From: Treponemataceae bacterium
GTDB lineage: Bacteria > Spirochaetota > Spirochaetia > Treponematales > Treponemataceae
NCBI GenBank assembly: GCA_024680915.1
Contig: JAILBN010000016.1
Span: forward strand, 1 to 54,656
Reading direction: 5' to 3'
DNA length: 54,656 bases
The notes under the pieces are model-generated. The model had not been told where the DNA came from and made no database searches. It saw only the letters and a list, made by a program, of their open reading frames with translations. A program made the translations under genes and the position numbers. The number at the start of each line of letters is the position of its first letter. Position 1 is the first letter of the stretch. Below, in pieces: positions 24,580 through 52,873 of this stretch.

Positions 24580-25569
24580 ATGAAACTCCTTCTTGCACCT
24601 ATGGCAACTCTTAGTCATGAAGCTTTAAGACGGGCTATATACAGACATGGCGGTTGCGATGAGTACTATACAGAAATGATAAATGCGGCTTCACTCGTAA
24701 ACGGAGGGAAGTTCGAGAAATTCTATATTCTTTCAGGACCAGAACCAGAAAAAATCGTATGGCAGCTTACAGGTGAAAATGCAGATAAGCTGGCGCATGC
24801 TGCATCCATAGTGAAGGAAAAGGGCGGCTTGGGCATAGACATAAATATGGGTTGCTCAGCCCCGGAAATATATAAGCATGGAGCAGGGATAGCCTGGATG
24901 ATGAAACCCCAGACTGAGACCAGGGAAATGCTGAGAAAGGTCAGGAGCTGTATTGGAAACCTGCGCTTCAGTGCAAAAATACGCCTTGGAGACGAGGATT
25001 TTACAGAAGAATCTCTTTTTTCCTTTATCGATATGCTGATTGAAGAAGGAATTACACGCATCGTAATTCATCCCCGTACCCGCAAAGAAAAATATTCACG
25101 TCCACCCCGATGGAATTTTATAAAAAAAATTGTTGACCATATAAAGAATTCGACAAATAATATATCTATTATAGGAAACGGCTGTGTTTCAGATAAGAAT
25201 ATCTTGAACGCACTATATGACGAGGTTCCCGAGATGGATGGTGTTATGATAGGCAGAGCAGCAGTCCAAAAACCTTGGATTTTTTCAGTACTTTCAGACT
25301 CCTATAAAACCAATTTCGTTATAGACTTGTATAAGGAAGCAGAATTATTTACATCTGACCTGCTTCAATACCAACCCAAGGAATTTTACGAAACACGTTC
25401 TAAACGTTTCTTTTCTTTTTTTCTGGACAATTTTATGTATGCCCATTATTTAAGGACGAAAATATTGAACACATCGGATAGGGAGACCCAGCTTTTATCC
25501 CTTCAGGAATATTTTCAGAAAATGCCAGAAGAAAGATTCTGCACAGTGGGGGGAAGGGATGTCTCTTAA
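24580..25569 (+). CDS. tRNA-dihydrouridine synthase family protein
   Basis: An FMN enzyme of the Dus family that reduces uridines in the tRNA D-loop. About 329 residues. LLAPMATLSHEALRRAI is the FMN-binding start of the barrel, NMGCSAPEIYKHGAGI holds the catalytic Cys92, AKIRLG and VIHPRTRKEKYSRPPRW are substrate/FMN loops, IIGNGCVSD and DGVMIGRAAVQKPWIF the phosphate-binding end. The helical C-terminal domain is shorter than in DusA. Which tRNA position it modifies cannot be said. Its 3' end overlaps the HD-GYP gene by 11 bp. Confidence 0.92.
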   Translation: MKLLLAPMATLSHEALRRAIYRHGGCDEYYTEMINAASLVNGGKFEKFYILSGPEPEKIVWQLTGENADKLAHAASIVKEKGGLGIDINMGCSAPEIYKHGAGIAWMMKPQTETREMLRKVRSCIGNLRFSAKIRLGDEDFTEESLFSFIDMLIEEGITRIVIHPRTRKEKYSRPPRWNFIKKIVDHIKNSTNNISIIGNGCVSDKNILNALYDEVPEMDGVMIGRAAVQKPWIFSVLSDSYKTNFVIDLYKEAELFTSDLLQYQPKEFYETRSKRFFSFFLDNFMYAHYLRTKILNTSDRETQLLSLQEYFQKMPEERFCTVGGRDVS

Positions 25570-26743
25570 TAACAAAGACAACTTATTTACGTTACTAACG
25601 ATACTTTCTATTTTTTTCGTATTGTCCCTAACAGTATCTATTCTACTACCCACAGTTTTTGAGACTGGAGAAAAATCAGAGACAATAATCCTCAAACAGA
25701 ATTCTTTAATCCAGCCCTATGGCACACTCTCACAGAATGAACAGAAAAAATGGATGGAGACAGGAAACCCTTTGCAGGGCGCGCAATACGATGGAACCGT
25801 AACAAATCCCACCACATTCGAGATAACATCATGGCAAATACAATTCCAAATTCCAGAAAGAGCCTATATCTCTGATTCATGGAATGGAATTTATGATGTG
25901 GACGATAATATAGTAACCATAGATCCTCCGGAAGAATACAACAGGACGATTCCTTCCGGCAACACGATAACATATGGATTCATCATGTATGCCCCGAAAA
26001 GTTATGTTCCAGGAGATGTGACCCTCTCTTTTAAGCAAAAAGTTGAGATTTCCCACGCATGGTATTATTACGCTATAGTTCTTATAACAATAATCTCAGG
26101 TTCTTCCCTCATTATATGCATACCTTTCGTCATAAAACTGAAAGATTTACAAAAGAAAGAAGAACAGGCCAGTGCTACTATAGAGCAGACCCTGAAACTC
26201 TTTGCGAACACAATAGAAGCAAAAGACCGTTACACTTCCGGCCATTCAGCCAGGGTAAGCTTTTATGTGAAGGAGCTTGCAAAAAGGATGGGGCTTTCAA
26301 AACAGGACCAGCAGTTTATTTATTACACGGCAATCATACATGACATAGGAAAAATAGGTATACCGGATTCGATATTATCAAAACCAGATGCACTTGATAA
26401 GGACGAAATGAAAATAATGATGACCCATGCAGAAAAGGGTGGAGAAATACTAGCTGACTTCGAATCCCTTCCGGGAGCATCAGAAATAGTCCGTCATCAT
26501 CACGAAAGGTACGATGGAACAGGATACCCTGATGGTCTCAAAGGCGAAGAAATCCCGCTTTTCTCAAGAATAATAAGTGTCGCCGATGGATTTGATGCTA
26601 TGACATCAGACCGCTGCTACAGAAAGCGCCTTCCTATGGGCCTTGTTGTAGAGGAGCTCAAGGCAAGCGCAGGAACTCAATATGACCCTAAAATCGTCAA
26701 ATGTATGCTGGACATATTAGAATCGGGGTTCACACCCCAGTAA
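25559..26743 (+). CDS. Membrane HD-GYP phosphodiesterase with periplasmic CBM2-like domain
   Basis: A 394-residue signalling protein. TM1 is about 8-31; a periplasmic beta-sandwich at about 65-148; TM2 about 168-192; a short coiled coil; then an HD-GYP domain (216-390) with His229, HD at 261-262, HHH at 313-315 and GYP at 322-324, which normally hydrolyses c-di-GMP. The periplasmic part aligns by eye with family 2 carbohydrate-binding modules: a TVTNPTT strand, TSWQIQF, SDSWNG and YNRTIPSGNTITYGF, with Trp65, Trp108 and Tyr127 near the positions of the three cellulose-binding aromatics. A purine- and G-rich ribosome binding site precedes the ATG inside the dus gene. The c-di-GMP function is well supported; glycan sensing is inference. 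Confidence 0.9.
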   Translation: MSLNNKDNLFTLLTILSIFFVLSLTVSILLPTVFETGEKSETIILKQNSLIQPYGTLSQNEQKKWMETGNPLQGAQYDGTVTNPTTFEITSWQIQFQIPERAYISDSWNGIYDVDDNIVTIDPPEEYNRTIPSGNTITYGFIMYAPKSYVPGDVTLSFKQKVEISHAWYYYAIVLITIISGSSLIICIPFVIKLKDLQKKEEQASATIEQTLKLFANTIEAKDRYTSGHSARVSFYVKELAKRMGLSKQDQQFIYYTAIIHDIGKIGIPDSILSKPDALDKDEMKIMMTHAEKGGEILADFESLPGASEIVRHHHERYDGTGYPDGLKGEEIPLFSRIISVADGFDAMTSDRCYRKRLPMGLVVEELKASAGTQYDPKIVKCMLDILESGFTPQ

Positions 26744-34599: not shown

Positions 34600-35757
34600 C
34601 TAAAGCGTCTCAGCTTTTATGCTTCTTTTATGGATATACATTTCGAAGTCGGCCCTGTTAAGGACATCTCCCAGTGTTTTGTCAGTCTTGCTGTTGAATT
34701 TAGAAAAACCGGCCGCAAATGATATTTTCTCAAGGATAGAACTCTTTTTCCTGACTTGAGCAAGAACGAATTCGTTTATATCTCTTTTTATTTCGTCATA
34801 TCTTTCGTAATCCTCATTCTGAAGAATAATGACAAATTCATCGCCCCCTGTACGGAAGACAGGACTGTGCTTAAAGAAATTACAAATAACTTTACAGCAC
34901 GATTTTATATAGAAATCTCCTGATTCATGACCGTAAGTATCGTTTATTATCTTGAGATTGTTCAGATCACATTCGCAGATCGCAAAATGCATAGCCTGGG
35001 CATCAGCCTGAATATTTGAATTGATTACTCCTGTTTTTCTTTCATAAAGTGACCGGTTTGCGACTCCAGTAAGAGAATCGTGAGCTGATTTTTCTTTCTC
35101 CTGGTCAATTATTTCGATAAGCTGGCACCGCAGAATATCCTGGGTAAATATATATAGTAGGATTGCTGTGAAACAGATTGAAAGATAACCGCTGTAAATA
35201 TGCTCCCACAATATAGAAGCAAGTTGTCCTGAAAGGAAAGTCAGGGAAATCATTACAAGGGTCATATAGTTCTTTGCTTTGACCTTTCTTCCCAAGTGTA
35301 CGAAAACAAAGAGTATAAAAAGAAAAGATATCGCGCAGAAAACGATATAAATCCAGTAATAGGCTCCTCGCTCAAAATGTCCTTCACTATTTACAGAAAA
35401 GATAAAACCGAAGGGAGCCATGGCAATCTCAATGGCCCCATGAAAGACCATCAGGATTATGACAGGCTTCAAGGATACCTTTACACCACAGCTTTTAGCA
35501 AGAAAAATAGTCAGGAAAGGGGAAAGAATATATTCGAGCAGAGTTACAGAAACAAAAAGCCAAGAGGGAATTCTTCCAATATTATTGAAAAGGACTCCCA
35601 AAAACTCACAGACAGCCCCCGCCATCACAAGTATAAAGGTAATTCTGAACCAGCGTATGCTACCCTTATCAAGGATAGTGTTTTTCCCAACAACCACAGC
35701 CAGCGTAACCATACTCATTACACAAGAAAGAATCACTACCCCGTAAAAAGGAACCAT
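34600..35757 (-). CDS. Membrane diguanylate cyclase (7-8 TM plus GGDEF)
   Basis: 385 residues. The first ~205 form seven or eight membrane helices like the 7TM sensor modules of histidine kinases and cyclases. The rest is a GGDEF domain: HDSLTGVANRSLYERK, CDLNNLKIINDTYGHESGD and FRTGGDEFVIIL (active site about 301-305). All catalytic positions are present, so it should make c-di-GMP. No RxxD inhibitory site is seen five residues before GGDEF, which suggests little product inhibition. The ribosome binding site GGAGAGG precedes the ATG. It is 39 bp after the uridine phosphorylase stop and probably co-transcribed. Confidence 0.92.
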   Translation of the reverse strand: MVPFYGVVILSCVMSMVTLAVVVGKNTILDKGSIRWFRITFILVMAGAVCEFLGVLFNNIGRIPSWLFVSVTLLEYILSPFLTIFLAKSCGVKVSLKPVIILMVFHGAIEIAMAPFGFIFSVNSEGHFERGAYYWIYIVFCAISFLFILFVFVHLGRKVKAKNYMTLVMISLTFLSGQLASILWEHIYSGYLSICFTAILLYIFTQDILRCQLIEIIDQEKEKSAHDSLTGVANRSLYERKTGVINSNIQADAQAMHFAICECDLNNLKIINDTYGHESGDFYIKSCCKVICNFFKHSPVFRTGGDEFVIILQNEDYERYDEIKRDINEFVLAQVRKKSSILEKISFAAGFSKFNSKTDKTLGDVLNRADFEMYIHKRSIKAETL

Positions 35758-50700: not shown

Positions 50701-50734
50701 GTTCTAAAAAATGTCGAAATTGGAGTATATGGAG

Positions 50735-50764
50735 ATTACAATTTTTACAAAAACATTCTATACT
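50735..50764 (+). promoter_or_regulatory. Promoter abutting the SpoIIE-phosphatase gene start
   Basis: ATTACA (50735-50740), 18-bp spacer, TATACT (50759-50764), 6 nt to the ATG at 50771. No Shine-Dalgarno sequence: candidate leaderless promoter. Confidence 0.5.
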
Positions 50765-50770
50765 GTTTTT

Positions 50771-52873
50771 ATGCGGTTTTTCCATGTATCTAAGAAGAGA
50801 ATATTTTTTTCTTCAGTAATCGCAATTCTCATATTTATTAGTATACTGGTGGGGTGCAACAAAAAAGACGATTCCTTATCACGAATATATTTTAAACATT
50901 GCTGGCAGTGGATTCAGGGTGAAGACGACGGAAGTATTCCTGAAACCCTCATGTCTGGCGAAAACTTCAAACTTCTGGAAACATCTGCTGAAAATGATCT
51001 TCGTTCCCTTATACCTGATTCGACCGGATATATTTGGGTCAGGGCAGAATTTCAAGTTCCAGAGGATCTACAGGACATAACCACAGGTATTCTATCAAAA
51101 AGGATACTTTATACAGGATCTATATACGTCAATGGAAATCAAATAGGACAACTGGGATCCTTGCCTCCAAACCAGTTTCTTTCTGGCTATAAAACAGGAG
51201 GTTTCTACATTCCTGAAACAATTCTCAACAAAACAGGAAAAAATGTTCTAGCGATAAAAATATGGGTAGAAGCTTTAGGATGTGTTCCCTCCACCATATA
51301 TTTCGGAAGTTATGATGAAATTTCCTATGAGGCAGAGAAATCAACCTTTTTTTGCTCGACTATAAATTTTTCCTTTTCTTTCTCTCTTATACTTATATCT
51401 CTTCTATATATTTTCTTTTACGTCCAAAGAAAATTCAAGGAATATCTGCTTCATGCAATGCTTAACTTATTCTCTGCAATATTCCTTACACCTTTTTTCC
51501 AAGATCAGTTTACCTTCATGGAAGGTCTTTTCCCCTCATATCTTGTTTTCTGTAAATTCTTTTATGCAATTCCTGCATATATATCGGCCTACTTCGCTTC
51601 GTCCTACATGCGGGAATTCCTTCATGAAAAGGATTCGAGAAATCTGAATATCACACGGTTGGCGATACTTGTAATCCCGATAATAATCACTTTATCAATC
51701 TCAGATCTTGTCTCCCTTATGAAGGCTCAGCCCGTTCTGATTCTCTTCATAGGTGCGCAGATATACTTCGGAATAGAGTCTGTTTTCAAATCACTGCTCA
51801 AAAATCAGAAAGAGGTATATGTCCTGATCGCAGGTTTTTCTCCGGTTATCGTTGCCATACCATTGGATGTGGTAATCCATTCGATATTCCACTTAGATAA
51901 CGTACCTTTTTTAACTATCTTGGGGTGGCAGGGAGTAATTCTTGCCTTTATGTTCATTCTTTCATTCCGTTACAATGAGATTTTCAAGAGGGTAGAATAC
52001 TTAAACACAAATCTTGAGAAAGAAGTTGAAGAAAGGACAATCCGTCTTTCGGAATCAAATGAAAAACTAGAGAATGAAAAAAAGCAGACCAAGGCAGACA
52101 TGGACTTCGCTGTCCATGTTCAAGAAGCTTTCTTCAAACAACCCGATTTTAAAATTGATGGTTGGGATCTTGCGATGAAAACAAGACCGGCGACAGGAAT
52201 ATCAGGCGATATGTTCGACGTCTATCATATAGGAAATGTCCTGGAAGGAATTTCTTTATTTGATGTTTCCGGACACGGAATCGCTGCTGGTCTGGTTACT
52301 ATGCTTTGTAAAAATATCATAGCCCAGAATTTCCGTGATGGTCTGTACAGTGGGGAAACCCATGAAAATCTCAGTGTCGTCATGGAGAATATAAACAGAG
52401 GAGTAATCACTGCAAAAGGTGATATAGAGAATTATCTTACAGGACTTCTTCTTAGAGTCGACAATGCTCCAGAAGGAGCGACATGTCATGCAGAATTAAC
52501 AAATGCAGGCAGCCCCATACCTCTTCTTTATACTCACAAAACAAAAAAATGTACTGAGATAAAGACAAAAATTCCTTCAATTCAGTACGGTATGATAGGT
52601 ATCCGTGGACTGGAAGTCTCCTTCCCGACACAGCATTTCGAAATAGCTCCAGAAGATGCTCTTGTACTATACACAGACGGCATTACGGAAGCCGTAAACA
52701 GTTCAGGAGAACAATTTGGCAGGGAAAGGCTTTCTAAGGCTATAGCAAATGCAGGTTCCACATCCGCACAAACAAGACTGAATTCCATCATGAACGAACT
52801 CCAAACCTTTGCTGAAGGTGTTCCCTACGATGACGATATAACACTGATTATTTTGCAAAGAAAAAAAATATAA
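50771..52873 (+). CDS. Membrane SpoIIE/PP2C-type serine phosphatase with 7TM sensor
   Basis: About 700 residues from the ATG at 50771 (longer frames start upstream of the promoter). A hydrophobic N-terminus ends in a lipobox-like ISILVGC (Cys about 29). Next is a periplasmic jelly-roll domain (about 60-190, with YVNGNQIGQLG, like the 7TMR-DISM or GH2 sugar-binding fold), seven membrane helices (about 200-400), a coiled coil and a PP2C/SpoIIE domain with SGDMFDV, LFDVSGHGIAAGL, LYTDGITEA and DDITLII. It likely dephosphorylates an anti-sigma-factor antagonist; no such partner is nearby. Confidence 0.9.
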   Translation: MRFFHVSKKRIFFSSVIAILIFISILVGCNKKDDSLSRIYFKHCWQWIQGEDDGSIPETLMSGENFKLLETSAENDLRSLIPDSTGYIWVRAEFQVPEDLQDITTGILSKRILYTGSIYVNGNQIGQLGSLPPNQFLSGYKTGGFYIPETILNKTGKNVLAIKIWVEALGCVPSTIYFGSYDEISYEAEKSTFFCSTINFSFSFSLILISLLYIFFYVQRKFKEYLLHAMLNLFSAIFLTPFFQDQFTFMEGLFPSYLVFCKFFYAIPAYISAYFASSYMREFLHEKDSRNLNITRLAILVIPIIITLSISDLVSLMKAQPVLILFIGAQIYFGIESVFKSLLKNQKEVYVLIAGFSPVIVAIPLDVVIHSIFHLDNVPFLTILGWQGVILAFMFILSFRYNEIFKRVEYLNTNLEKEVEERTIRLSESNEKLENEKKQTKADMDFAVHVQEAFFKQPDFKIDGWDLAMKTRPATGISGDMFDVYHIGNVLEGISLFDVSGHGIAAGLVTMLCKNIIAQNFRDGLYSGETHENLSVVMENINRGVITAKGDIENYLTGLLLRVDNAPEGATCHAELTNAGSPIPLLYTHKTKKCTEIKTKIPSIQYGMIGIRGLEVSFPTQHFEIAPEDALVLYTDGITEAVNSSGEQFGRERLSKAIANAGSTSAQTRLNSIMNELQTFAEGVPYDDDITLIILQRKKI

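Follow-up and report, generated by a model that had tools for sequence, protein, structure and literature searches.

Predicted periplasmic CBM2-family domains as putative glycan receptors of HD-GYP and class III cyclase proteins in Treponemataceae

Introduction

Carbohydrate-binding modules of family 2 (CBM2) are known as appendages of enzymes. Described members include the CBM2a of C. fimi Xyn10A/Cex (1exg, 6qfs), the module of C. cellulovorans EngD (3ndy), the xylan-binding CBM2b 1xbd, and the chitin-binding domains 2cwr and 2rtt. Modules of other families are established as sensors in the RsgI anti-sigma factors of Clostridium thermocellum, which carry CBM3, CBM42, PA14 and GH10 ectodomains (PMC12203970). 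RsgI proteins resemble the proteins described here in that a carbohydrate-binding module serves a membrane signalling protein as its external sensor. They differ in acting on a sigma factor via proteolysis and in carrying the sensor C-terminally, on the outside of a Gram-positive cell, whereas the CBM2 sensors have an HD-GYP or a cyclase output. A predicted extracytoplasmic sugar input of c-di-GMP proteins has also been described, the carbohydrate-binding jellyroll 7TMR-DISMED2 (PMC8846402), but this belongs to a family other than CBM2. No CBM input is named in the main-text passages retrieved by term from that review of c-di-GMP enzyme inputs, whose supplementary architecture tables may list one.

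CBM sensors are already known from RsgI; no prior report of a CBM2 domain gating an HD-GYP or cyclase protein was found in the literature searched. Paper searches returned none that combines CBM2 with GGDEF, or a CBM with adenylate cyclase in Treponema, and no title or abstract listed for carbohydrate-binding modules and HD-GYP describes the CBM2 fusion. Most inputs of c-di-GMP enzymes are uncharacterised. The fold described here has ligands well known elsewhere, which makes the ligand of the sensor directly testable.

Results

Organization of the locus

The window analyzed is a stretch of 54,656 nt from a Treponemataceae bacterium (GCA_024680915.1, contig JAILBN010000016.1, positions 1-54,656 of the forward strand). 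An ORF of 394 aa, located at 25559-26743 on the plus strand as expected from the original prediction, encodes a CBM2 - HD-GYP one-component sensor, in which the Pfam CBM_2 and HD_5 domains both score above the cut-offs. The protein includes, in order, a helix, an ectodomain, a second helix followed by basic residues, a linker and an HD-GYP domain. The first membrane helix (about residues 10-33, 25586-25657, plus strand) was read from the sequence as the hydrophobic stretch FTLLTILSIFFVLSLTVSILLPTV; a helix at residues 5-33 is also featured by a single-sequence AlphaFold model of the whole protein (pLDDT 46). The second membrane helix (about residues 170-193, 26066-26137, plus strand), similarly read from the sequence, is followed by the basic motif KLKDLQKK. 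The ectodomain (residues 34-168, 25658-26062, plus strand) was assigned to the CBM2 family by AlphaFold, Foldseek, VIA and a profile search of PDB sequences, and the HD-GYP domain spans positions 26198-26695 (plus strand). The order of the domains, and the HD_5 match reported below, bear out the view that a CBM2 domain between two helices is the periplasmic input of an HD-GYP output.

Spirochaete cells have an outer membrane. As the ectodomain is flanked by two putative inner-membrane helices, and basic residues follow the second, it is predicted to be periplasmic, a topology deduced from the sequence. Neither a secretion signal nor an outer-membrane anchor was seen on reading the 394-aa sequence.

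A gene named by eye as a Dus-like tRNA-dihydrouridine synthase (24580-25569, plus strand) overlaps with its 3' end the start of the sensor gene by 11 bases, and the sensor gene faces an ABC transporter. The dus/sensor/transporter order is kept in the close relatives L002 and L147. The overlap with dus is genomic context, and lies outside the sensor mechanism. No glycosidase gene adjoins the sensor gene. The contig also encodes a membrane GGDEF protein (34600-35757, minus strand), at a distance of 8 kb from the sensor gene. The ORF at 50711-52873 (plus strand) encodes a 720-aa membrane protein in which, by eye, a sandwich-like ectodomain at the N-terminus is followed by several helices and a SpoIIE-like phosphatase end.

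Fold of the ectodomain

The CBM_2 (PF00553) match covers residues 73-148, and scores 36.5 bits (gathering cut-off 24, E 6e-9); CBM2 is thus present according to a curated criterion, and not by eye alone. The 3.15 Mb genome has no other CBM_2 place. CBM49, another cellulose-binding family, scores just under or at its cut-off in the same protein. Since the single-sequence model of the whole protein was poor, residues 34-168 were modelled by AlphaFold along with 36 relatives. The resulting model is a nine-strand beta sandwich (pLDDT 94.9, pTM 0.87). Foldseek ranked first C. fimi CBM2a (6qfs; E 3.5e-7, TM 0.78 by target), and each of the best 12 rows is a CBM2, a chitin-binding domain of that type, or a chitinase bearing one. 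VIA-align superposed 100 residues on the EngD CBM2 3ndy at 2.1 A (Z 12.2) and 97 residues on 6qfs at 1.9 A (Z 12.1), against a Z of about 9 for unrelated sandwiches. A family profile run against PDB sequences hit only chains of the CBM2/ChBD type (best 1exg, 5.9e-8), and a profile-profile comparison with four canonical CBM2s gave E 2.6e-13. Integrin and AP-2 mu domains, which rank further down in both structure comparisons (Z 8-9), have a common sandwich arrangement, lack sequence support for kinship, and were discarded. As modelled, the sensor ectodomain is a genuine CBM2 fold. Both the fold claimed in the original prediction, and the structural comparison proposed there as a check, hold in these data. 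The strands quoted in it are also present, as are residues W65, W92, W108 and Y127. Purifying selection acts on the ectodomain (dN 0.20 and 0.27, dS saturated).

The ectodomain shares with the CBM2s of glycosidases the fold and the order of the strands, the core Trp (W92), and residues corresponding to Cex W54, W17 and N24. In contrast, it is anchored by two membrane helices, has an extra N-terminal strand and a longer loop after W65, carries the family motif GAQYDG, is not joined to a glycosidase catalytic domain, and does not conserve the third aromatic of the face.

The putative binding face

Positions were compared to what we take to be the Cex reference sequence, the numbering of which agrees with the coordinates for 1exg. 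Every alignment puts W108 opposite W54, and does likewise for W92 with the core residue W38 and for D78 with N24. W108 (25880-25882, plus strand) is invariant in the 73 family members; D78 (25790-25792, plus strand) is Asp in 62/73 of them, and Glu, Asn, Thr or Ser in the others. W65 (25751-25753, plus strand), located at the end of the preceding strand in the AlphaFold model, is Trp in 60 of the 62 members aligned at this position, Tyr and Phe in the remaining two. In each of the three MAFFT modes it matches the Trp that three canonical CBM2s have at the W17 position; W17 of Cex itself is matched in the global mode only.

Y127 (25937-25939, plus strand) lies opposite W72 in the pairwise phmmer alignment, but is one column off or faces a gap in MAFFT. 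It is retained by a minority of the 73 members, the nearest relatives included. Of the three face aromatics originally proposed, two are hence placed at W54 and W17, while the assignment of the third varies with the alignment; a flat face made by three aromatics would fit the 25559-26743 protein and its nearest relatives, but not the rest of the family, in which the third position is variable. Viewed across the aligned members, constancy is limited to two of the three face aromatics. A face with two aromatics is typical of the xylan-binding CBM2b, which binds soluble chains.

The HD-GYP output

The HD_5 match (residues 214-379) scores 130.4 bits, versus a cut-off of 27.2 (E 7e-38). The metal-ligand motif is complete (H229, H261-D262, H290, H314-H315, D343), and is accompanied by G322-Y323-P324. 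Only HD-type domains were detected by Pfam in the cytoplasmic part, with no anti-sigma domain. The closest PDB relatives are 5z7c (V-cGAP3, named a 3'3'-cGAMP-specific phosphodiesterase) and 4mcw (PmGH), which share with the sensor all HD-GYP metal and GYP motifs but differ in the sensor domain. In PmGH a third metal is bound by the Glu of the motif DPETxxH. This position is occupied by Tyr (Y225) in the 394-aa sensor, as in V-cGAP3; the shared residue points to a probably binuclear metal site, and leaves c-di-GMP and other cyclic dinucleotides as possible substrates. A c-di-GMP network is present in the genome, as denoted by 21 GGDEF and 4 PilZ places over the cut-offs.

Distribution and architecture of the family

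Relatives of the ectodomain were found in 69 of the 195 Treponemataceae genomes sampled; a scan of contigs with the single 394-aa protein as query identified one close relative only. Among 393 Spirochaetota genomes a single one outside Treponemataceae has the sensor-type domain, in a protein of the cyclase type (G238, L082); it belongs to another family. The remaining match outside Treponemataceae, a CBM2 in G264 (L102), was rejected as an ordinary enzyme module, linked to a GH8 recognized by eye. Plasmid records searched for the sensor domain gave no match.

Pfam CBM_2 occurs at 24 places in the 195 genomes. Of these, 22 correspond to HD-GYP sensors, and none resides in a glycosidase. The remaining two form a tandem within a single large secreted protein encoded by G189, a fragmented genome. 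This protein (L066:1173-4871, minus strand, 1232 aa) has calcium-type repeats and a lipase-like region in addition to its two canonical CBM2s, and the L066 contig is possibly a contaminant. Three N-terminal repeats resembling the sensor domain were identified in a GH5 enzyme of G013 (L141:320-2680), one of which weakly matches the family profile (E 4.8e-5); relatives carried by enzymes therefore exist below the Pfam threshold.

Two types of output have been distinguished. HD-GYP domains are carried by about 46 proteins of the set examined. The HD motif is found in all, and HHE-x2-[DN]G-x-GY in 45/46, the remaining protein being cut by the end of a contig. Members L056, L057 and L064 (632 aa) have an insert in the CBM2-like domain, WCG in place of WNG, and an unassigned region before HD-GYP. 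The second output is a class III nucleotide cyclase (Guanylate_cyc, E 1.4e-56) behind a multi-helix N-terminus. Proteins of this type measure about 705 aa, and are made by the multi-helix N-terminus, the CBM2-like domain, a transmembrane helix and the cyclase; they were observed at L015:547-2661 (plus strand) and about 26 further loci. No Pfam CBM_2 match was obtained in the cyclase-type members scanned, the domain being too divergent. In the domain tree the cyclase group forms one clade (support 100/96) lying among HD-GYP members, with the position of the root not fixed. This branching fits a single transfer of the domain from HD-GYP to cyclase proteins.

Genes adjoining the paralogues

In four orthologous loci of four genomes (L181, L186, L187, L188) a GH9 cellulase gene, the product of which includes CelD_N and CBM_4_9 domains, is directly upstream of an HD-GYP sensor gene, on the same strand. 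The two genes are separated by 61-85 bp or overlap by 18 bp, and are candidate sensor-enzyme operons. A GH5 gene is found 61 bp upstream of the sensor gene on the same strand in G116, and 76 bp apart in divergent orientation in G188. Within 62 neighbourhoods, immediate neighbours of a sensor are 6 of the 8 GH5/GH9 ORFs, versus 124 of the 598 non-sensor ORFs. Four of the six adjacent GH5/GH9 ORFs are orthologous, so that just three independent arrangements support the association. Most paralogues have no glycosidase neighbour. GH5 was found in 63/69 sensor-bearing and 83/126 other genomes (raw counts, kinship ignored). In two instances the HD-GYP sensor gene is immediately followed by a gene which, by eye, encodes an MCP-like chemoreceptor (L165:4143-6227, 17 bp gap; L172:1176-3287, 16 bp overlap).

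Discussion

We lean slightly towards viewing the 394-aa protein as a membrane one-component receptor, in which a periplasmic CBM2 domain would bind a glycan and tune the activity of HD-GYP; topology, glycan binding, ligand and signalling are all predicted features of this reading. A cell-envelope argument bears on the nature of the ligand. A periplasmic ectodomain is unlikely to meet insoluble cellulose directly, unless fragments enter, and soluble oligosaccharides are likelier. The input would most likely be soluble beta-1,4-linked oligosaccharides freed from plant cell walls and admitted via the outer membrane. The glycan would dock on the face made by W65, W108 and D78, with the addition of Y127 in the 25559-26743 protein, and the C-terminal strand along with the second membrane helix would relay binding to the cytoplasmic HD-GYP, altering its cyclic-dinucleotide phosphodiesterase activity. 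The c-di-GMP level, and with it the alternative between motility and residence on the fibre, might in this way be tied to the products of fibre breakdown. As to the sign of the response, a guess marginally favours a ligand that inhibits the phosphodiesterase, keeping cells near the fibre.

The CBM2 fold, the conservation of W108 (73/73), of an aromatic residue at W65 (62/62 aligned) and of a mostly acidic residue at D78, and the purifying selection all speak for a receptor, as do the placement of 22 of the 24 CBM_2 places in HD-GYP sensors, the adjacency of GH9 and GH5 genes in paralogues, the higher frequency of GH5 in sensor-bearing genomes, and the c-di-GMP network. Against it, the 25559-26743 gene and most paralogues lack a glycosidase neighbour, few neighbouring genes were counted and some of these are orthologous, conservation does not extend to the third aromatic, and a conserved surface-type Trp could serve dimerisation.

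One alternative is that the CBM2 fold has been kept as a structural, dimerisation or protein-binding module with a dead sugar site, the signal coming from a partner protein or from the state of the membrane. The loss of the third face aromatic in most members would fit such a role, as would the motifs GAQYDG and SSWNG, missing or partial in the four enzyme-type CBM2s compared, the lack of a known ligand, and the many members with no glycosidase neighbour. Yet few residues are better conserved than the two face aromatics and D78, even across members less than 30% identical, and cellulase genes are neighbours in several lineages. We consider the alternative rather unlikely.

The ectodomain might otherwise sense a glycan of the cell itself, for example peptidoglycan or an exopolysaccharide that crosses the periplasm while being made, and feed back on c-di-GMP. 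Both glycans share the compartment of the sensor, and chitin-binding modules are found among the CBM2 relatives. The cellulose synthase family PF03552 is however absent from the genome, while control genomes do match it, which speaks against self-made cellulose as the ligand; moreover, GH9 and GH5 cellulase genes adjoin paralogues, and no exopolysaccharide cluster recurs among the sensor neighbours. Sensing of an own glycan seems improbable.

Direct binding of insoluble cellulose, by which the cell would touch the fibre through the 25559-26743 protein, is suggested by aromatics putatively at all three face positions, but is very improbable for a domain flanked by inner-membrane helices, the second of which precedes a basic stretch, hence behind the outer membrane, and with no secretion or outer-membrane anchor seen; the plant-polymer contact originally envisaged is accordingly doubtful.

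In treponemes of plant fibre, CBM2 may have changed from an appendage of enzymes to a periplasmic receptor dedicated to glycans, with dozens of paralogues and two second-messenger outputs (c-di-GMP breakdown by HD-GYP and cyclic nucleotide synthesis by class III cyclase). Some of the paralogues would share an operon with cellulases and read the products of these; we regard this broader proposal as tentative, its chances falling a little short of even. A CBM2 match need not denote a carbohydrate-active enzyme: in Treponemataceae nearly all Pfam CBM2 matches are sensors, which we read as receptors. If true, a CBM family has been recruited as a receptor for second-messenger enzymes, and the products of plant-wall breakdown would be linked to the choice of rumen-type spirochaetes between the motile and the attached state.
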